Source: Gammaproteobacteria bacterium (GTDB taxonomy: Bacteria > Pseudomonadota > Gammaproteobacteria > JAKDMP01). From it: a DNA stretch of 64,000 nt. The DNA is taken from the NCBI GenBank assembly GCA_027018875.1, contig JALUYA010000009.1, positions 34,019 through 98,018 of the forward strand. Reading direction: 5' to 3'. The position numbers and the translations under genes were made by a program. Below the pieces are notes generated by a model. That model was given only the letters and a program-made list of their open reading frames with translations. It was not told the origin of the DNA and did no database searches. This document shows positions 5,653-17,907 of the stretch, in pieces (positions within the stretch are counted from its first letter, which is position 1; each line of letters begins with the position of its first letter).

Positions 5653-6293
5653 TGTTCATCTCCTTGGATGCTATACCGAACCGTTGTGGGTTACGGGAAA
5701 TAAAGCACGCCGCGGCGGTACCACTCCAATCGAATCACCACGGTACTTGCTCTGTTTGCCTCCGCACCCATCAGCCCCGGCCAATTTCGAAACGCGCCCA
5801 CCGCGATGCGCGTGCCAACCTTGCAGAATCATATCGCGCGCCCGACCGGAACGCTGCTCCAGCCGCCGGGTGCGCCTTGAGCCAGCCGTCACCTTACCGA
5901 TACCCGCGCCAGAAGCGCAACCCCCATCGTGCATCCAGCGGCACCTGGGCCTAAGACCTGCTCTGACCGTGCAAGGGACAGCCGATCTGATGCGCACGGC
6001 ACCGAAAACAAGGAGTTCGCATTCTCCCGAAACCGTGTTTCGCGATGCGCGCGCAGTACCCCCCGATTTGCCGCGATCTATTGGAAACCGCGAAAATCTG
6101 TTATTTTTATAAAAAATGACCTGGCAGATTGCTAAATCGACAGCCTGGGGATTACAAGCGACGGAGACCACCGCGAATCGCGGATCCGTTCATTTTGCCC
6201 GAGGGCAATAGCATAATTCCCGGGCCGGATCCGGCCCCTGGGCAGCCCGGGGATCCAGGATATCGATTCCGATCGCCACGGATACGGGACGAA

Positions 6294-9200
6294 ATGATGG
6301 ACAAAGAAGATGGTATGGAAACCCGGCGCGGCATTTGCGGCATCTGCCCGGCGGGCTGTTGGGTCAAGGTAGGCCTGCGCCACGGTAGGCTGGAGACGAT
6401 AGCCGCCGATGAGGGTCACCCGCTGGGGATGATCTGCCGCCGCGGGCAACACGCCGCGGAAATCATCTATTCCGAAAACCGCCTGCGTTATCCGCAAAGG
6501 CGCGTCGGCTCCAAGGGTGGTTTCAAGTTTAAGCGTATCAGTTGGGATGAAGCCTATGCTCATATCGTCCAGCGCCTGAACGCCATCAAGGCCGAATCCG
6601 GATCCGAGGCCCTGGCCGTGTACACCGGGCGCGGGGCCTTCGAGCTTTCCCTGTGTGACATCTTCCAACCCAAGGGCGTGGCCGTGTCCTCGGCCTCCAG
6701 CGTGCTGTTTCCCTTCGGTTCGCCCAACACCATGGGCGTAGGGGCGCTGTGTTATGTCTCCTTCGCCATGATGGCGCCGCACCTCACCATGGGCCGCATG
6801 CTGATCAATATGTTTGCCGACATGGAGAACGCGCAGCTGCTGGTGGTCTGGGGAACCAACCCGGCTACCGATTCGCCGCCGCTGGACATGCAGCGCTTGG
6901 AACAAGCGCGAAAACGGGGCGCCGAGATCGTGGTTATCGATCCGCGGCGCACCGAGACGGTGCAGCGCTGCGCGGCCGAATGGATCCCTCTCCGGCCGGG
7001 TACCGACGGGGCGCTGGCCCTGGGGCTGATTCAAGTGATGCTGGAAGAAGAACTGTACGACGAGCACTTCGCCGAGAATTGGACCCTGGGCTTCGACGAG
7101 TTGGCACAATATGCGCAGCACTTCCGTCCCGAAGTGGTGGAGTCGATCACCGGCGTGGCAGCGGCCACGGTTCGCCGCCTGGCCCGGCGCATCTGCACCG
7201 CTACCGGTGCGGCACCGGTGATGTATACCGGGCTGGAGTATTCCAACTCCGGCATCCAGGCCATCCGTGCGGTGTTCACCTTGTGGGCCCTGGCGGGCCA
7301 ACTGGATGTGCCGGGCGGCTTAGGGCTGGCCATGCAGGGCTCCCATTTCCCCATCAATCGCTCGGGGCATCTAGCCAATCCCGATCTGTCCCGGGCCGTC
7401 GCCCGCGACCGTTTCCCCCTCTATAGCAAATACCGCGGTGAATCCCACGCCAGCGGGTTGGTGGACGCGGTGCTGCATCACCAGCCCTACGCCATCCGTG
7501 GCCTCATTGTCCACGGCGCCTCGGTACTCACCTCCTGGCCGGAGACACCGCGCTGGCGCGAAACCCTGGCCAAACTGGATTTCCTGGTGTGTATCGACCG
7601 CCAACTCACCGCCGATGCGGCCTACGCAGACATCGTGCTGCCGGCCACTACCCTATTCGAAATTAATTCCTATATGACCTATGGCCCCATCTTCCGCCTG
7701 CGTGAACGCCTTGTCGAGCCCGTGGGAGAGGCCCGCAATGATTACCTGATCATGGCCGAGCTTGCGGCGCGGCTTGGCTATGGCGAAGCCTATCCGCAAT
7801 CGGAAGAAGCCTTGCTAAGGCACGTACTGAAAGGTTCTGGTTTCAGCCTCGACCAGGTACGCCGGCGAGGTGGAACCGTCAAGATTCCCACGCCCATGAT
7901 GGAATACAAGAAATGGGAGAAGGGGGGGCTGCGCCCGGACGGGACGCCCGGTTTCGACACGCCCTCGGGCAAGTTCGAAATCCACTCTACCATCCTCGCG
8001 GACTACGGCTATGAGCCTCTGCCCAAGTACACGGAACCGGTGGAAGGTCCACTGGCACGCCCGGACCTGGCGCGGGCCTTCCCGCTGGTGTTCAACTCCG
8101 GCGCTAGGCCGCAGACCGATTTCCGTTCCCAGCACCACGGCATCTCGGGGCTGGCCCGGGACAATCCCGAACCCACGGTGGAGATCAACCGCGTGGATGC
8201 CGAGGCCCGAGGCATCCATAGTGGTGACAAGGTGGAGCTGCGCACGCCCCGCGGCACGGTCCGTTTCCGCGCCCGGGTAACGGACGATATCGTTGCGGGC
8301 GCGGTGGAGGCCAACATGGGCGGCGGCGGACCCGTGGGTCCCGAGGCCTGGCGCGAAACCAACGTCAACGAACTAACGGACCTGGGAAACCACGATGAAA
8401 TCTCTGGCTTTCCGGTATATAAGGCCTTGCTTTGCGAGGTGCTCAAGGTGGCGCCGGGCACCGCGGTCGGGGGCCGTCCCGAAGAGGTCCCGGAGATTTG
8501 TGGCGCACAATGGCGGCGGTCGAAGAAGGCCGAGCCCCGGCGACGTATCTACCTGGACAACAATGCCACCACAGCCCTGGATCCGGGAGTCCGCCTCGCC
8601 ATGGCACCTTATTTGGAGGCGGGGTATGGCAATCCCTCCAGCATCCACGATACCGGCAGGCAGGCGCAGGAGGGACTGGAGCAGGCCCGCCGCCGGGTGG
8701 CACGGCTGATTAACGCCAAACCGCGGCGGGTGATCTTCACCGGCGGCGGTTCGGAAGCGGATAACCTGGCCCTTAAAGGGGTGGCCTTCGCCGCCCAGGG
8801 CCGGGGGCGGCACATCATTACCACCCAGGTGGAACACCCGGCGGTGCTGGGCGCATGTCGCTTTCTCCAAGGCCGAGGTTTCCGCGTCACCTACCTGGAA
8901 GTGGACGCCACGGGCCGACTCGCCCCCGACACCTTGGAGAAGGCGTTAAGCGATGACACGCTGCTCGTCTCGGTGATGGCGGCCAACAACGAAACCGGAA
9001 CGATCTTTCCCATCAGGGCATTGTGTCGCCTGGCTCATGCCCGCGGCGCCCTGTTTCACACCGATGCGGTGCAGGCCGCCGGAAAGATTCCAATCGACGT
9101 GGAAGACTGGGGCGTGGATCTGTTGACCCTATCCGGGCACAAGTTCCACGGACCCAAGGGCGTGGGCGTGCTCTATATGCGCAAGGGAGTGTTACTGGAG

Positions 9201-9698
9201 CCGTTGGTACATGGTGGCAAACAGGAGCGCGGTCTGCGGGCGGGAACCGAAAACGTGGCCGCCATAGTCGGCCTGGGCGCGGCCACGGAAAAGGCCCTGA
9301 ACGATCTTGCCGACATGCACCGGGTGCAGGTTCTGCGCGATCGGATGCAAAGCGGTATCGAGGCGCTGATTCCTGATGCGCGCCTGAACGGCCATCCGCA
9401 AGCGCGTTTACCCAACACCCTCAACATGACTTTGCCGGCGCTACGCGGCGAGTCGCTGGTGGTGGCCCTGGACCAGAAGGGAATCGCCTTGTCGTCCGGC
9501 TCGGCCTGCAAATCCGGCTCCCCCGATCCCTCCCACGCGCTCATGGCCATGGGGATGAGTGCCGAGGATGCGCACTGCGCGATTCGGGTGTCACTCTCCC
9601 ACTTAACCACGGAAGAAGAGATAGATCGAACGTTACAGGCCCTGGCCGAGGTACTGGAGGAGATGGAAACCACGGTACGATTTCTTCCCTGCAAGTAG
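6294..9698 (+). CDS. Fusion protein: molybdopterin (bis-PGD) oxidoreductase fused to IscS/NifS-type cysteine desulfurase
   Basis: One ORF (track 6129-9698; start re-placed at MMDKEDGMETRRG). N-terminal [4Fe-4S] motif CGICPAGC...GMIC, Mo-ligand-type SPNTMGVGALC (Cys codon 6750-6752), and a molybdopterin-dinucleotide-binding C-domain. Then RRRIYLDNNATTALDP from about 8538, PLP Lys in LSGHKFHGPKG (codon 9141) and active-site Cys in SSGSACKSGSPDPSHAL (codon 9507). Confidence 0.93.
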   Translation: MMDKEDGMETRRGICGICPAGCWVKVGLRHGRLETIAADEGHPLGMICRRGQHAAEIIYSENRLRYPQRRVGSKGGFKFKRISWDEAYAHIVQRLNAIKAESGSEALAVYTGRGAFELSLCDIFQPKGVAVSSASSVLFPFGSPNTMGVGALCYVSFAMMAPHLTMGRMLINMFADMENAQLLVVWGTNPATDSPPLDMQRLEQARKRGAEIVVIDPRRTETVQRCAAEWIPLRPGTDGALALGLIQVMLEEELYDEHFAENWTLGFDELAQYAQHFRPEVVESITGVAAATVRRLARRICTATGAAPVMYTGLEYSNSGIQAIRAVFTLWALAGQLDVPGGLGLAMQGSHFPINRSGHLANPDLSRAVARDRFPLYSKYRGESHASGLVDAVLHHQPYAIRGLIVHGASVLTSWPETPRWRETLAKLDFLVCIDRQLTADAAYADIVLPATTLFEINSYMTYGPIFRLRERLVEPVGEARNDYLIMAELAARLGYGEAYPQSEEALLRHVLKGSGFSLDQVRRRGGTVKIPTPMMEYKKWEKGGLRPDGTPGFDTPSGKFEIHSTILADYGYEPLPKYTEPVEGPLARPDLARAFPLVFNSGARPQTDFRSQHHGISGLARDNPEPTVEINRVDAEARGIHSGDKVELRTPRGTVRFRARVTDDIVAGAVEANMGGGGPVGPEAWRETNVNELTDLGNHDEISGFPVYKALLCEVLKVAPGTAVGGRPEEVPEICGAQWRRSKKAEPRRRIYLDNNATTALDPGVRLAMAPYLEAGYGNPSSIHDTGRQAQEGLEQARRRVARLINAKPRRVIFTGGGSEADNLALKGVAFAAQGRGRHIITTQVEHPAVLGACRFLQGRGFRVTYLEVDATGRLAPDTLEKALSDDTLLVSVMAANNETGTIFPIRALCRLAHARGALFHTDAVQAAGKIPIDVEDWGVDLLTLSGHKFHGPKGVGVLYMRKGVLLEPLVHGGKQERGLRAGTENVAAIVGLGAATEKALNDLADMHRVQVLRDRMQSGIEALIPDARLNGHPQARLPNTLNMTLPALRGESLVVALDQKGIALSSGSACKSGSPDPSHALMAMGMSAEDAHCAIRVSLSHLTTEEEIDRTLQALAEVLEEMETTVRFLPCK

Positions 9699-9772: not shown

Positions 9773-10618
9773 TTACTGCCTCACGCAGGATCGCCCGGGC
9801 GCCACTTCATCCCCTGTGGCAAGGGTGGCGTCGCGCATAGACCGCAGCCAATCCTGCATTGCAGAGATGCCGAGTTCACCCGCTTCCAGTTCCCGGAGTC
9901 GGGTAACCACCGCCGAACCCGAGATGACTCCCGCCGCCCCGGCGGCAATCCCTCCGGCCACCTGCTCCGGGTTGGAAATCCCGAACCCCAGGACAGGGGG
10001 AGCCGCTCCGCGGCGGGCCAAAGCTTGGAGCCATTCGCGCACCGCCCGTCCCGCCCCCTGCTCGGCGCCGGTCACCCCGCTGCGCGTCAAGACATAGGTA
10101 TATCCATCGCCCAGTCTGGCGATACGCTCCAGGGCCGCACCCGGGGCATTGGGCGGGGCGATGAATACCGGCGAAATACCGGCCCGACGGGCCGCCGCGG
10201 CGAACGGCTCCCCCTCCTCGCTCGGAACATCGGCTACCAATACCGAATCCACTCCGGCCTTGGCGGCCGCGGTATAGAAGGCATCGACACCTCGGCGCAC
10301 CACAAGATTGGCGTAAACCAGAAGCCCGATAGGCAAATCCGGGTGCCCTCGACGCAGCCCCGCGCACAGATCGAAGCCTCGGCGCACGGTAGTCCCCGCA
10401 GCCAGAGCCTCGGCGCCGGCCCGTTGTAGCGTCGGGCCGTCGGCGACGGGGTCGGAAAACGGCATGCCCAGCTCCAGCGCATCCGCCTGTGCCGCCAACA
10501 GTTCAAGATGCCCGATACAGCTCCGCGGATCCGGAAATCCAAGTACGGTAAACGGAATGAAAGCACCACGGCCGGAACGCGACAGCGCGGCAAAACATTC
10601 CCGGTAGCGACGAGTCAT
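9773..10618 (-). CDS. trpA: Tryptophan synthase alpha chain
   Basis: [42 protein letters not shown]. Confidence 0.97.
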
Positions 10619-11808
10619 GGCTTGACCCCTCCCAGCAAGCCTCGCACATGGGTCAAATCCTTATCTCCCCGTCCTGACAATCCGACCAGGATCACGGTTT
10701 CACGCTTTACCCGCCGTGCCTCTTCCAAGGCCCATGCCAGGGCATGGGCCGACTCCAGCGCCGGAATAATCCCCTCTTCGCGCGACAAGGCCTGAAATGC
10801 GTCCAGGGCGGCGGCATCCTTGACGGGTACATATTCGGCGCGGCCAAGCTCTGCAAGGTAGACATGTTCGGGACCAACGCCCGGATAATCCAGCCCCGCC
10901 GAGATCGAGTACGATTCCAGAATCTGCCCGTCATTATTCTGCATGACATGGGTGCAGGCCCCGTGCAGTATCCCCGGAGAACCCGCCGAAATGGTGGCAC
11001 CGTGGCGCCCCGTCTCGACCCCCTCGCCGCCCGGTTCGGCACCGACGAGACGTACGGATTCATCGTCGATAAAATCGGCAAACAGTCCAATGGCATTCGA
11101 CCCGCCGCCGACACAGGCGACCGCCACGTCGGGCAGCCGCCCTTCGCATTCCAGAATTTGGGCCCGGGCCTCCCGCCCGATGACCCGCTGAAACTCTCTG
11201 ACCAAGGTCGGAAACGGATGCGGCCCGGCGGCGGTTCCCAAAAGGTAGTGTGTGTCGGCATAACTGGATGCCCAGTCGCGCAAGGCTTCGTTGATGGCAT
11301 CTTTCAGCGTGCCGCTGCCGTTTTCGACCGCCACCACTTCGGCACCGAGCAATTCCATGCGGAAAACATTCGGTTGCTGGCGCTCACAGTCACGCACCCC
11401 CATGTACACTCGCACGGGAATTTTCATGAGGGCTCCCGCCAGCGCGGTAGCCACCCCGTGCTGCCCGGCACCGGTTTCGGCAATGATTCGGCGCTTCCCC
11501 ATGCGCTTGGCCAGCAACGCCTGGGCCAGCACCTGGTTGGTCTTGTGGGCCCCGCCATGGAGCAGGTCTTCACGCTTTAGGTAGATCCGCGCCGGGGTCT
11601 GCGCGACCAAGTTGCGGCACCGGGTAAGCGGCGTCGGTCGGCCCGCATAATCCCGCAGCAGCTCGTTCAGCTCGACCTGGAATTGGGTATCGGTACGGGC
11701 CGACTCGAAGGCGGCCTCGAGTTCCACGAGTGGAGGCACCAAAAGTTCCGGCACGTAACGCCCCCCCCAGCACCCAAAACGCCCGGGCTTGGTTTCACTT
11801 GTCTCCAT
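10615..11808 (-). CDS. trpB: Tryptophan synthase beta chain
   Basis: [37 protein letters not shown] (PLP Lys), [22 protein letters not shown]. Confidence 0.98.
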
Positions 11809-13180
11809 CGAGTCTCCTGCGGCCCGGTGCGCCGCGCAGTGTTTGCATCAGGGTGAAAAGCCTAGCCTCATCCTTGATCCCAGGACTCGCCTCGACCCCG
11901 GAATTCACATCGATCGCCCACGGCTCCAGGTGCCGGGCCACGAGCACATTCTCCCGGCCGATACCACCGGCCAACACGCACCGCGACAAATCCGTTCCCG
12001 CAAGAGCGGCACCGGCGAACACGAGACCGCTGCCGCCCAATACGCCATCCCGGCCCGTGTCGAGCAACAACCGGTCCGCTCTCCAAGCCTCGGGTTGCGG
12101 CAAGGGAGGCCGGCCCGCAACGGCCTTCCAGATTTCGCATTTCGCCGGTAGCAGTTCACGCAACCGTCCGGCGTATTTGCCATCTTCACGACCGTGGAGC
12201 TGTACCGCCGTAAGCCGCAGCAATGCCGCCGTGGCTGCCACTTCTTCAAGCGCCTGATCGCGAAACACGCCGATCCACTCCAGGGGCGCCGCGGCGCGGA
12301 TTTCGCGGGCCCTGGCGATAGCGATGCGCCGGGGAGAATCCGGGGCAAAGATCAATCCACCCATCACCGCTCCCCGACGCCAGGCCATGGCGGCATCTTC
12401 GGGCCGGGTGAGTCCACAAACCTTGACCCGGCCGAAGATCAGCCGCCGTGCCACATGCCCCGGTCGGCCACCGCGCGAGAGCCCGGTTCCTATCAGGAAT
12501 CCGTCCACCAGCGGCGCCAGCCGGGCGATCTGCTCGCGGGAGGTGATACCCGATTCACTCACTACCCGGCGCTCGGCGGGAATTTGCGGGGCCAACCGTT
12601 CGGTAACGGCCAGATCCAGCGCCAGCGTCTTCAAATTCCGATTATTTATTCCGATGATCGGCGCTTCGATCCGGATTGCCCGCTCAAGCTCCGCCTCGTC
12701 GTGGATCTCGGTCAGGGTATCCATACCCAATTTTTGCGCAACCTCATAACAGGCCCGCCAGCGGGCATCGTCGAGTACCGAGAGCATCAGCAGCACGGCA
12801 TCGGCCCCGTGTGCCCGCGCCTCGAGTACCTCGTCGGGTCCCAGGATGAAATCCTTGCGGAGCACGGGAACCCGGGTCACCCCGCTTACCTGGCGCAGGT
12901 GAGAGATCTCCCCTCCGAAAAACTCGGGTTCGGTCAATACCGAAACGGCGTCGGCAATCTCCTCGTATTGTTCTGCTAATTCGGCCGGATCATAGTGCTC
13001 TATCAATACCCCCGCCGAAGGTGAGGCCGCCTTGCATTCTAGAATAAAGGTGGGCCACGGTCGCTGCAACGCATCCCGAAGTCCCGCGCCTTCCCGCGCG
13101 GCGATGGGCAAGCCCATTGTCCCGGGCGCGACCCCCGGCCGACGACGGCGCTTCGCGGCTAAGATTTGTTCAAGCACCAT
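11795..13180 (-). CDS. trpCF: Bifunctional indole-3-glycerol-phosphate synthase / phosphoribosylanthranilate isomerase
   Basis: N-terminal IGPS ([28 protein letters not shown]) and C-terminal PRAI ([48 protein letters not shown]) in one 461-aa ORF. Confidence 0.96.
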
Positions 13181-14180
13181 GGCTTAGTTTTCGCAGCCGT
13201 TCGAGCCGCTTTGCGGCCTCGCCGTTTGCCAAGGCCGCCAGGGCCATCTCGACCCCCTGGCGCAAGTTCTCGACCCGCTCGGCAATCCACAACAAGGCCC
13301 CGGCATTGAGTGCGATGGCTTCGCGGTAGGCCACAGAGCCCCTGCCTTCGAGCACGGCGGCCAAGGCCGCCGCATTTTCCTCCGGCGCTCCGCCGCGAAG
13401 CACGGCCAATGGGCGTGACGCAAGCCCGGCGCCCTCGGGGGTCAATTTCAGTGTTTCGATTCCTCTCCCGGTAACCCGGGCGGCCAGCGTGGGGCCATGC
13501 AGGGCGATTTCATCGAGCCCGCTGCCGTGGACCACGAGCGCCCGCTCGGTGCCCAGCGCCCGCAGCGCCTCGGCGACCGGGACAACCAGTTCCGGCGCAT
13601 AGACTCCCGCGAGCTGGCAGGGAGGGGCCGCGGGATTGACCAGGGGACCGAGGACATTGAACAAGGTTCTCGTCGCCAGGCTGCGCCGTACCGCCATGGC
13701 ATGGGCGATCCCCGGGTGATAGTCCGGCGCGAACAAAAAGGCGACTCCGGCCTGATCCAGACAGCGTCTGGCCGTAACCGCGTTCGCCCGCACCTCCACT
13801 CCCAGAGCCTCGAGCACATCCGCGGACCCCGAGCGCGAAGACACAGACCGGTTCCCATGTTTGGCTACAGGCAGGCCACAACCGGCGACTACGAAGGCCA
13901 CGGCGCTCGATACATTGAGCGTTCCCAGGCCATCACCACCCGTGCCACAAGAATCCGCGAAAAAATAATCGGGACGGGGAAAGGGCTTGGCTGCGGACCG
14001 CAAGGCCCTGGCCGCGGCGGCGATTTCCTCTGCGCTCTCGCCCTTGATTTTCAGGGCTACCAGCAGAGCGGCGAGGAGAATCGGATCGACTTTCCCCTCG
14101 ATTACACGAGTGAACAGAATCTCAAGATCCTGCGCGGCGAGTTCCTCGCGGCGGTAAAGACGTTCAAGCATCTCGATCAT
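13170..14180 (-). CDS. trpD: Anthranilate phosphoribosyltransferase
   Basis: ADSCGTGGDGLGTLNVSSAVAFVVAGCGLPVAKHGNRSVSSRSGSADVLEALG and FNVLGPLVNPA. Confidence 0.97.
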   Translation of the reverse strand: MIEMLERLYRREELAAQDLEILFTRVIEGKVDPILLAALLVALKIKGESAEEIAAAARALRSAAKPFPRPDYFFADSCGTGGDGLGTLNVSSAVAFVVAGCGLPVAKHGNRSVSSRSGSADVLEALGVEVRANAVTARRCLDQAGVAFLFAPDYHPGIAHAMAVRRSLATRTLFNVLGPLVNPAAPPCQLAGVYAPELVVPVAEALRALGTERALVVHGSGLDEIALHGPTLAARVTGRGIETLKLTPEGAGLASRPLAVLRGGAPEENAAALAAVLEGRGSVAYREAIALNAGALLWIAERVENLRQGVEMALAALANGEAAKRLERLRKLSHGA

Positions 14181-14782
14181 GACGATTCATTCCGCGCCCA
14201 GGCAAACACTTGCCGGATCAGGCGACTGCCATCGCGTGTCAGGATGGATTCGGGATGAAACTGGACCCCGAGCAAGCGCCGCGCAGGATCCTCGATCGCC
14301 ATCGGCACCCGCACTCCCACCTCCTCGATCCAGGCGAGTTCCTCGAATCCCTCGGGGATTCTGCCGATCGCAAGCGAGTGGTATCTACCGGCCACGAAGG
14401 GATCATCCAATCCCCGGAACACGCTCGTCCCATGATGCCGAATTGCTCCCGCCTTGCCGTGCACCAGCCGCGGCGCCCGCTCGACAATTCCACCAAAGGC
14501 GGTGGCAAGGGCCTGGTGCCCCAGGCATACGCCAAATACCGGCTTACGCCCCGCCGCGAGCTTTAGCAGTGGAACCAGTACTCCCGCATCCTCGGGCCGG
14601 CCCGGACCGGGGGAAAGCACCACCAAGTCATGCCCCGACAAGCGCCGCTCCAGGGTTGCCATGTCGGCATCGTTGCGCCAGACCTCGACCGCAGCACCTT
14701 CGCGGCGAAATTCGTCTACCAAACTATAGCTGAAGGAGTCGAAATTATCTAAAAATAAAACTCGGAAGGATTTAACCGACAT
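14177..14782 (-). CDS. trpG: Anthranilate synthase component II (glutamine amidotransferase)
   Basis: LFLDNFDSFSYSLVDEF, VLSPGPGRPEDAG, VFGVCLGHQALA, VQFHPESILT. Start moved to Met at 14782 because the upstream part of the ORF overlaps trpE. Confidence 0.95.
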   Translation of the reverse strand: MSVKSFRVLFLDNFDSFSYSLVDEFRREGAAVEVWRNDADMATLERRLSGHDLVVLSPGPGRPEDAGVLVPLLKLAAGRKPVFGVCLGHQALATAFGGIVERAPRLVHGKAGAIRHHGTSVFRGLDDPFVAGRYHSLAIGRIPEGFEELAWIEEVGVRVPMAIEDPARRLLGVQFHPESILTRDGSRLIRQVFAWARNESS

Positions 14783-16322
14783 GAGTCGTCTCCCTGTCCA
14801 CACCCAATGTCTGTAATACGGCCTGCGCCTTGCGCCGGGTTTCATCGGCTTCCGCCACGGGGTTGGAATCGGCCACGATCCCCGCTCCCGCCTGAATGCG
14901 GGCACTTCCCGAACGCACCAGTGCCGAGCGGATCACGATCGCCGTATCGAGATCCCCTCCCGCCGTCAGGTACCCCACCGCACCCCCGTAGGGACCTCGT
15001 CGGCAGGGCTCATAGCGGCGCAAAAGCTCGGCGGCACGCAATTTCGGCGCCCCGGTCAAGGTACCCATATTGAGCGTAGCCTGGTAGGCGTGCAGCGCAT
15101 CCAACCCCGGCATCAGCTCGCCCGAAACCCGGGAAACCAAGTGCATGACATGCGAATAACGCTCGACCCGCATCAACTCGTCGACCCGCCGACTACCAGG
15201 AATCGCTACCCGAGCGATATCGTTGCGGGCCAGATCGACTAGCATGACATGCTCGGCAATTTCCTTCTCCGACAGCCTCAGTTCCAGTTCCAGCCGGGCA
15301 TCGAGTTCCGCATCAACGCTCGGGCGCCCCTGGCGCCACCCACGCTCCCGGGTACCGGCAATCGGACGAATCTCCACCCGCCGGGCGGCGGCATCCACCT
15401 TGAGCGCGCTTTCCGGCGAGGCTCCGAAAAGTATGCCATGGCGATCTTGCAAGCAAAACATATATGGACTGGGATTCTGGATTCTCAGCCGGGCATAGGC
15501 TCCCACGGGGTCCGCGCAAGCCGCGGTCCAGGCCCGCGCCGGTACAATTTGATAGATATCGCCTTCGTTAATGTGCTGCCTGGCCCGATCGACCAGCCGG
15601 GCATAGGCGGCATCGTCCAGTTCCAGGCAGGCGGTGACCGCCGTGGGTATCTCGCCGGGCCGGTAGGAACCGGCATCATGGCATAACCGCTCGAGCGCGG
15701 CAAGCCGGCGACGGGCCTCCAGCGCCTCGTCCCGCAGTGCCAGCGTATAGAGCGTAGTATGGGCATGACGATGATCGATGCGGACCAGACTGCCGGCAAG
15801 ATGCAGGCTGTAATCCGGGTAGCCCGTCGGGTCGCGGATTGCGCCCGGGAGCGATTCGAAGTCATCGAGCAAGTCATAGGCGAAGCAGCCGAAAACGCAA
15901 ACATTGGCCGCCTCTGCCGCATCATGAATGGGTAAATCGAAAAGCAGTCGCCGCAAGGGATCGAATACGGAGCCCGCCTGTAACCGGGTCGCGTCATTCC
16001 CCACAATGCCGCCACGGGGGTAGTCGAAAACCAGAGTTCCATCTTGCTCCTGTATCACCGGCATATCTACCGCGGCAGCGACTTTCGCCGAGATCTTTGG
16101 ATCGGCATGAGGATGTGCCACCAGCCGCACGCTTCCGTTTCGGGACTCTAGGCTGATCCAGGGATCCACGAAAATCAGGCTTTCCGCGCTTTCTCTTGCA
16201 CCGGAATCGGCGGTTTCGAACAGGGCCGCCACCTCCTGCTGGGCGGCAAGTGCGGCGTAGATCGACAGCGGATCGGGGGCTCCCTCTAAGCGCCGAGACA
16301 ATATACGCAACCCCCCGCTCAC
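14772..16322 (-). CDS. trpE: Anthranilate synthase component I
   Basis: [82 protein letters not shown]. Confidence 0.96.
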
Positions 16323-17335
16323 GGCCTCCGTCCCGCGGCTGCAATAAAGGGCTTCAGCTCCTGCATCAGTGTGGTAAAGGTGCTCGGATCGAGCGACTGT
16401 CGCCCATCAGACAAAGCCTCGGCCGGGAAAGGATGCACCTCGATCAATAATCCATCGGCTCCGACCGCGACCGCCGCCTTGGAGAGCGGCGCCACCAGCT
16501 CCGCCACCCCGGTTCCATGGGAAGGATCCACCAGAACCGGCAGATGCGTATTGCGCTTGAGCCATGCCACCGTATTGAGATCCAACGTATTGCGAGTCGT
16601 GGTTTCATAGGTGCGAATGCCACGCTCACACAAAATGACCTTTTCATTCCCCTCGGTAAGGATGTACTCGGAGGCCAAGAGCAGTTCCTCGGCGGTGGCC
16701 GCCAAACCCCGCTTCAATAACACGGGCAGGCCACTGCGTCCCACGGCCCGCAGCAGCGCATAGTTCTGCATATTCCGCGCGCCAACCTGCAACACATCGG
16801 CACGGCCGATAAAATGCTTGAGATCGGCCGTATCAAGTACCTCGGTCACCACCGGGAGCCGCCACCGTCTTGAGACATCGGCAAGAAGTTCCAGGGCTTC
16901 CGGCCCGTGTCCCTGAAAACTATAGGGACTGGTACGCGGCTTGTAGGCCCCACCGCGAAGCGCATGCGCGCCGGCGGCCTTCACGGCATCGGCCGCTGCC
17001 GTCAACTGAGCCTCGCTCTCCACCGCGCAAGGCCCGGCGATTACCACGAAGCGTTCGCCACCAACGCTCACCCCATGGCCCAGATCCACCACGCTATCCT
17101 CGGGATGCAGCGATCGGCTTGCCCGCTTATACGGCGCCGGGTCACGGATAACTTCCTCGACCAGTGGATGCTGTTCAAGCGCCATGGTTTCCAGCGCCAA
17201 GGCCGATCCCACCAACGCATAGGCGCGAGTGCCGTTGCCGCCAACGGTAAGTGCCGTGATTCCTCGTTCGCGCAGTTCCTCGATCAATCGCTCACGATCC
17301 GTTTCCGGTACGTTCGCTCGCAATACCAAAAACAT
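16319..17335 (-). CDS. aroF: 3-deoxy-7-phosphoheptulonate synthase (AroF / type I-beta, with N-terminal ferredoxin-like domain)
   Basis: [94 protein letters not shown]. Confidence 0.94.
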
Positions 17336-17356: not shown

Positions 17357-17384
17357 AAAAAAGGCCCGCGATTCGCGGGCCTTT
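17357..17384 (-). terminator. Intrinsic terminator/attenuator hairpin of the aroF-trp leader
   Basis: On the minus strand: AAAGGCCCGCG-AAT-CGCGGGCCTTTTTT, an 11-bp stem followed by a T run, ending about 20 nt before the aroF ATG. Confidence 0.88.
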
Positions 17385-17421
17385 CCTACAACAAGCGCCG
17401 AAACGCATCATACAGGTAGGG

Positions 17422-17481
17422 TCAACCCGCGGATATGCTCCGGGGCCAATACCAAGCTTGATTTGTGAATACCCTATTCAT
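17422..17481 (-). CDS. trpL: Trp-operon leader peptide MNRVFTNQAWYWPRSISAG*
   Basis: Short minus-strand ORF upstream of the terminator hairpin: ATG AAT AGG GTA TTC ACA AAT CAA GCT TGG TAT TGG CCC CGG AGC ATA TCC GCG GGT TGA. It has two Trp codons flanking a Tyr codon. Not in the supplied ORF track (too short). No strong Shine-Dalgarno was seen. Confidence 0.78.
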   Translation of the reverse strand: MNRVFTNQAWYWPRSISAG

Positions 17482-17907
17482 GACGCAAAAGCTTGCGCCC
17501 CTGCCCGGGCAAAGTCAACCCCCCCTTGCCCATTGTCTTCGGTCCAATTCCAGGAACCTACCGGGCTTATAAGACTGGGCGGCTGTGAGAAAGCCCTTAT
17601 GGCCGGATTTCTCGTTTATTCGTGTTAAGCGGAACATTGGTCACACATTGGAGAAGACTGTTTCCGCCGCCGGAGACGCTATGGGTGTTTTTGGCGCAGG
17701 CGCTAAGTGCGGATCGTTCGTGCCAGCGGGCGGAGAACCAATAGGGGTGACAGATTGAGGCGCGCGCAGTGTTGCTTCGATCTACGCTTTTCAGGGCGGC
17801 TCCCGTGCCGTTACAATCCCGCAGCACGCGAGTTTCTAGTGTGGCATGAAGGGTATTACGAAAAAATCTGATTTTCTCTCTCGTCTCTCGTGAAGATCCG
17901 CCGAGCA

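Follow-up and report, generated by a model that had tools for sequence, protein, structure and literature searches.

The question raised by this locus is how one operon, which joins the gene for a DAHP synthase, aroF, to the trp genes, is controlled, and whether the short open reading frame (ORF) and the terminator in front of it form a tryptophan-responsive switch, one which is without annotation in the source record though it is kept in relatives. From comparison with related leaders and from predicted folds we consider it about 93% probable that the leader in the window (the whole 64,000 nucleotide stretch of DNA that was analysed) is a ribosome-mediated transcription attenuator for the aroF-trpEGD(CF)BA operon. 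The type of switch, Trp attenuation, is a known one, and its placement before aroF is unusual. The features of the leader are:

17513 to 17518, minus strand: -35 element TTGACT, matched by TTGAC(A/T) at this position in 11 of 13 related leaders
17490 to 17495, minus strand: presumed -10 element CAAGCT, a weak match (2/6), with a better one, TANNNT, at the same spacing in relatives
17422 to 17481, minus strand: leader peptide ORF MNRVFTNQAWYWPRSISAG-stop, read directly from the sequence and homologous to MNALRVNQAWWWRPGGPAAG-stop and MNGIHPDRTWRWPGRKLRDDSV-stop
17446 to 17454, minus strand: regulatory codons TGG-TAT-TGG (Trp-Tyr-Trp), both Trp positions conserved and the middle codon not
17440 to 17445, minus strand: region 1 (CCC-CGG) of the 1:2 pause hairpin proposed in a preliminary description of this DNA, -9.7 kcal/mol alone, the specific helix not conserved
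17424 to 17431, minus strand: region 2, CGCGGGTT, 5' arm of the antiterminator, overlapping the leader stop codon, its CGGG core present in 22 of 22 leaders compared
17374 to 17384, minus strand: region 3, AAAGGCCCGCG, common to antiterminator and terminator according to the fold, covariation and pairing analyses
17357 to 17370, minus strand: region 4, CGCGGGCC, with the T6 tail of the intrinsic terminator, the 3:4 pairing covarying in relatives

The preliminary description had placed a leader ORF at 17481-17422, followed by a terminator with a T6 tail at 17384-17357, and both are read directly on the minus strand. The ORF runs from an ATG at 17481 to a TGA at 17424-17422 and holds Trp codons at 17454-17452 and 17448-17446 with a Tyr codon (17451-17449) in between, so that a short ORF with paired Trp codons stands upstream of trp genes. 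An intrinsic terminator lies between this ORF and the first gene, and consists of AAAGGCCCGCG (17384-17374), the loop AAT and CGCGGGCCTTT (17370-17360), with the T6 at 17362-17357; 21 nt separate the T run from the aroF ATG (17335), and the Shine-Dalgarno (SD) sequence of aroF is GGGAGGA. When both strands of the window were scanned for this layout (a short ORF with paired Trp codons, followed 35-130 nt later by an intrinsic terminator) a single match, this leader, was found, compared to 1 match altogether in 25 dinucleotide-shuffled windows (about 0.04 per window), and the fold of the whole leader is more stable than those of shuffled sequences (z = -3.87).

Downstream of the leader the genes are arranged as follows:

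16319 to 17335, minus strand: aroF, type I-beta DAHP synthase (PRK08673/TIGR01361), no second DAHP synthase having been found in the assembly
14772 to 16322, minus strand: trpE, whose GTG start overlaps the aroF stop
14177 to 14782, minus strand: trpG, start inferred
13170 to 14180, minus strand: trpD
11795 to 13180, minus strand: trpC-trpF fusion
10615 to 11808, minus strand: trpB
9773 to 10618, minus strand: trpA

This gene content bears out the idea that a DAHP synthase gene and all of the trp genes would lie downstream of one attenuator. The genome to which the window belongs (G000, a fragmented assembly that is 95% complete) yielded two proteins with PF00793, AroF and one other, and we read the second as KdsA because it resembles AroF little and is encoded after pyrG; a search for the other type of DAHP synthase (PF01474) gave no match in this assembly, nor in G001, G234, G119 and G330, each of which has one further PF00793 match. 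The I-beta type has been described as unusual in Gram-negative bacteria (PMC1173090). That the genome is gammaproteobacterial is suggested by its TrpCF fusion, by its type of TrpE and by the closest relatives that have a name. The switch thus appears to govern, besides all trp genes, the enzyme that opens the whole aromatic pathway, and, if the gene content holds, one Trp-sensing RNA switch (Trp attenuation itself being textbook) would set the supply for the other chorismate products, including Tyr via the chorismate mutase-TyrA (CM-TyrA) protein present in G000. A search for TrpR (PF01371) in G000, G001 and G388 found none, suggesting that attenuation may be the main Trp control.

Two side observations were made on gene content. 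Prephenate dehydratase (PF00800) gave no match above cut-off in 14 genomes, some of them incomplete (G000, G001, G041, G119, G234, G330, G369, G370, G372-G375, G384 and G388), while 14 of 14 control genomes were positive; a reading of these hosts as Phe/Tyr auxotrophs was dropped, as G000 has CM-TyrA and PF00800 covers homologous dehydratases only. Elsewhere in the window, at 6129-9698 on the plus strand, a 1189 amino acid frame combines a molybdopterin oxidoreductase (PF00384, PF01568) with a class-V aminotransferase/cysteine desulfurase (PF00266) in an apparent fusion.

Attenuation was also assessed by comparison with relatives. Clustered Trp codons, a GCGGG arm and a terminator are found together in 12 leaders from 11 genomes of four families (the window's leader included), of which 11 stand before aroF-trpE and one stands between aroF and trpE, and in these 12 the GCGGG arm matches the 5' arm of the terminator. 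G001, the only other genome of the same order in the comparison set and of the same family as G000, has an aroF 71% identical to that of the window, preceded by MNGIHPDRTWRWPGRKLRDDSV-stop and a GGCCCGC/GCGGGCC terminator. The leader closest to the window's is MNALRVNQAWWWRPGGPAAG-stop from G388, of another family (aroF 72% identical), and GCGGGTTGACCC across the stop codon is common to the two; the G375 leader reads MSRIENKMIARRWWWWTHSPAGVRA-stop, and seven genomes of a further family (f119) have longer leaders with WW, WWW, WWWW, WAWW or WTWW near the stop codon. In all of the compared genomes (G001, G388, G375 and the seven of f119) trpE accompanies aroF in the locus, and the full seven-gene order was checked and is present in G001, G234, G119 and G330. 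Leaders with runs of Trp codons also precede aroF-trpE in Photobacterium, Enterovibrio, Salinivibrio and Kangiella, whose AroF proteins are 51-56% identical. Some loci carry more than one unit: in G001 a second Trp attenuator (locus L138, 10440-10640, minus strand), with MKTQFINQTWWWQHDTTAAGIAVPD-stop and a terminator of its own, separates aroF from trpE, and two Kangiella loci (L041 and L047) have two tandem units of Trp leader plus terminator, about 330-400 and 190 bases before aroF. The Trp codons and the competing arms are therefore conserved in relatives, the point on which sequence comparison could have told against the preliminary description, and the classic trp attenuation layout which that description proposed is well supported.

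Over 19 distinct leaders the terminator (3:4) positions are 89.5% paired, with 14 double-change cells, a number reached by 0 of 500 shuffles. The antiterminator (2:3) positions are 80% paired in the same number of distinct leaders, compared to at most 49% when the arms were slid, and their covariation is weak (score reached by 54 of 500 shuffles), there being little of it because the core of the pairing never varies. One position does change in all three arms, as C-G-C in the window, U-A-U in G388 and G-C-G in G375. The duplex between region 3 and the upstream spacer is stronger than the shuffle mean in 22 of 22 leaders and in the best 5% in 14 of them, counts which relatedness inflates. For the window's leader alone, 18 of 200 shuffles match its 2:3 complementarity, which is modestly better than chance, and thus it is the comparison with relatives that makes this pairing convincing.

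Predicted folding agrees with mutually exclusive 2:3 and 3:4 pairings in a ribosome-mediated Trp attenuator, as had been proposed. The calculated energies are -19.6 kcal/mol for 3:4 and -24.1 kcal/mol for 2:3 with its inner stems. The proposed 1:2 hairpin fared less well, since it can form (-9.7 kcal/mol alone, -13.0 with flanks) but differs from the ribosome-free minimum free energy (MFE) fold, in which region 2 pairs just downstream with ACCTGT. Prefix folds, in which the RNA stops where region 3 ends and the nucleotides that a ribosome covers may not pair, were calculated for 12 leaders. When the ribosome is set on the Trp codons, pairing of region 3 to the region 2 segment is predicted in 12 of 12, and a ribosome set at the stop codon prevents it. 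The predicted folds therefore change with ribosome position as expected, and the modelled antiterminator is one that a stall at the Trp codons frees and that a ribosome at the stop codon blocks. In full-length MFE folds of eight leaders the terminator forms at nearly every ribosome position tried (the exception being G375 when the first of its Trp codons is occupied), and antitermination must therefore be a kinetic effect that depends on the order of synthesis. Switching by order of synthesis is how other attenuators work. A promoter and terminator scan of the window called neither the leader promoter nor the leader terminator, the former because of its poor -10 and the latter probably because the T run is itself paired, with A's in the stem.

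From these features we infer the following course of events. The leader peptide would be translated while RNA polymerase moves ahead; with plentiful Trp-tRNA the ribosome would reach the stop codon (17424-17422) and cover region 2, leaving region 3 to pair with region 4 and transcription to end at about 17357. With scarce Trp-tRNA the ribosome would stall at 17454-17446, and region 2, remaining free, would capture region 3 before region 4 is made, allowing the polymerase to continue into the operon from aroF onwards. Transcription probably begins on the leader ATG or directly beside it, with the leader read as a leaderless mRNA.

The position of the promoter is what suggests this last point. 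The presumed -10, poor as it is in the window, lies 17 nt from the -35 and 8 nt before the leader ATG, and 11 of 13 leaders have TTGAC(A/T)-N17-nAnnnT with its end 6-9 nt ahead of that codon; from a promoter so close, transcription should begin on the ATG or no more than about 2 nt away from it. The leader mRNA is thus probably leaderless, as in Sinorhizobium trpL, although an SD-like AAGGTG in the first G001 leader counts against this. A leaderless trpL is established in Sinorhizobium meliloti, where the mRNA of the trpLE(G) attenuator begins at the trpL ATG and the operon is not repressed at initiation (PMC7298713), but that attenuator is alphaproteobacterial, has one Trp codon and controls trpE(G) only. 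Leaderless trpL has also been reported in Streptomyces (PMC8079986), where trpL1 of Streptomyces lividans (MFAHSTRNWWWTAHPAAH) combines a leaderless Trp leader peptide with a terminator but precedes a monocistronic trpE in an actinobacterium.

The leader bears a clear likeness to the Rfam family Trp_leader (RF00513), the attenuator of enteric-type trp operons. A search of the whole window at gathering cut-offs gave no match; RF00513 was nevertheless the best of 4227 Rfam families for this leader, matching at full length (1-100 of 100) with 21.1 bits, short of its cut-off of 41 bits. Full-length matches below the cut-off were also obtained for the second G001 leader (28.7 bits), G388 (26.6 bits) and the first G001 leader (22.6 bits), while six loci before aroF passed it with 41-55 bits (L033, L035, L038, L039, L040 and L041, from Photobacterium, Enterovibrio, Salinivibrio and one Kangiella). 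This suggests that the leader works like Trp_leader while falling outside formal Rfam membership. Shared with the family are the Trp-codon peptide, the pause, antiterminator and terminator arms and the trp operon downstream; in contrast to it, the window's leader precedes aroF and not trpE, its promoter abuts the leader ATG and its Trp codons are split by Tyr. The Photobacterium, Enterovibrio, Salinivibrio and Kangiella leaders have the same operon head, Trp codons and CGGG/CCCG/CGGG arms as the window, but those of Photobacterium and Enterovibrio differ in having a trp-operator-like CTAGTTnACTAG and a longer 5' leader, several with an SD-like sequence. The 22 leaders, including the tandem attenuators of G001 and Kangiella, could extend the Trp_leader family, and the probably leaderless type among them is missed by Rfam's model.

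That the terminator is an ordinary constitutive one, with the Trp-rich ORF a coincidence, is very improbable: it is very stable and dominates the full-length folds, but the Trp codons, their spacing and the arms are conserved in 11 genomes, chance would give the layout about 0.04 times per window, and an operon with a constitutive terminator 21 nt ahead of its first gene, aroF, would be silent. We also think it improbable, if less so, that the main action of the leader is in trans, through its peptide or a terminated small RNA, comparable to peTrpL and rnTrpL of Sinorhizobium. The probably leaderless layout and the lack of a detected repressor do resemble S. meliloti (PMC7298713), but the conserved features fit attenuation in cis, the peptide outside its Trp codons varies widely between families, and any action in trans would be additional to cis attenuation and not an alternative to it.

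The Tyr codon between the Trp codons had suggested dual Trp/Tyr sensing, through which the operon with the only detected DAHP synthase would answer Tyr starvation too, and the relatives do not support this. The geometry would allow it, as a ribosome stalled at TAT would likewise leave region 2 free, the CM-TyrA protein means that the DAHP synthase may also feed Tyr synthesis, and within the same class a Phe/Tyr leader precedes another, separate operon, aroF-tyrA. However, the window's leader has just one Tyr codon, and a Tyr inside the Trp block is unique to this genome among the leaders compared: G388 and the second G001 leader have TGG as the middle codon and the first G001 leader has CGG (Arg), and nothing in the relatives points to selection for Tyr sensing. 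Dual sensing is thus unlikely, and equally doubtful is the fuller proposal of a leaderless, repressor-free attenuator that senses Trp and Tyr via Trp-Tyr-Trp and gates the only DAHP synthase and thereby the flow of carbon into all aromatic synthesis. The reading we prefer remains a cis-acting attenuator that senses Trp.

Attenuation has been proposed for other aromatic supraoperons (PMC1173090), and a survey of Shewanella lists predicted leaders both at trpE and at other DAHP synthase genes (PMC2659441); our literature search turned up nothing on an aroF-trp operon under Trp attenuation, older key papers lying outside its reach. Leaders of another specificity were seen before DAHP synthase genes of the same type, in Firmicutes and other phyla, as short Phe/Tyr-rich ORFs with a terminator, for example MASSSKKGYYYYYRYYRSGLL (loci L044, L045, L048, L056, L059, L069, L073, L079, L089, L092, L093, L096 and L102); the four Phe/Tyr leaders that were scanned had no Rfam match at gathering score. 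At L142 (3392-5700, minus strand) and L151 an aroF-chorismate mutase-like fusion is followed by tyrA, and upstream lies a Phe/Tyr leader, MRYPFATTYGYYVFPPAGKRAHIV, with a terminator and a promoter that abuts its ATG.
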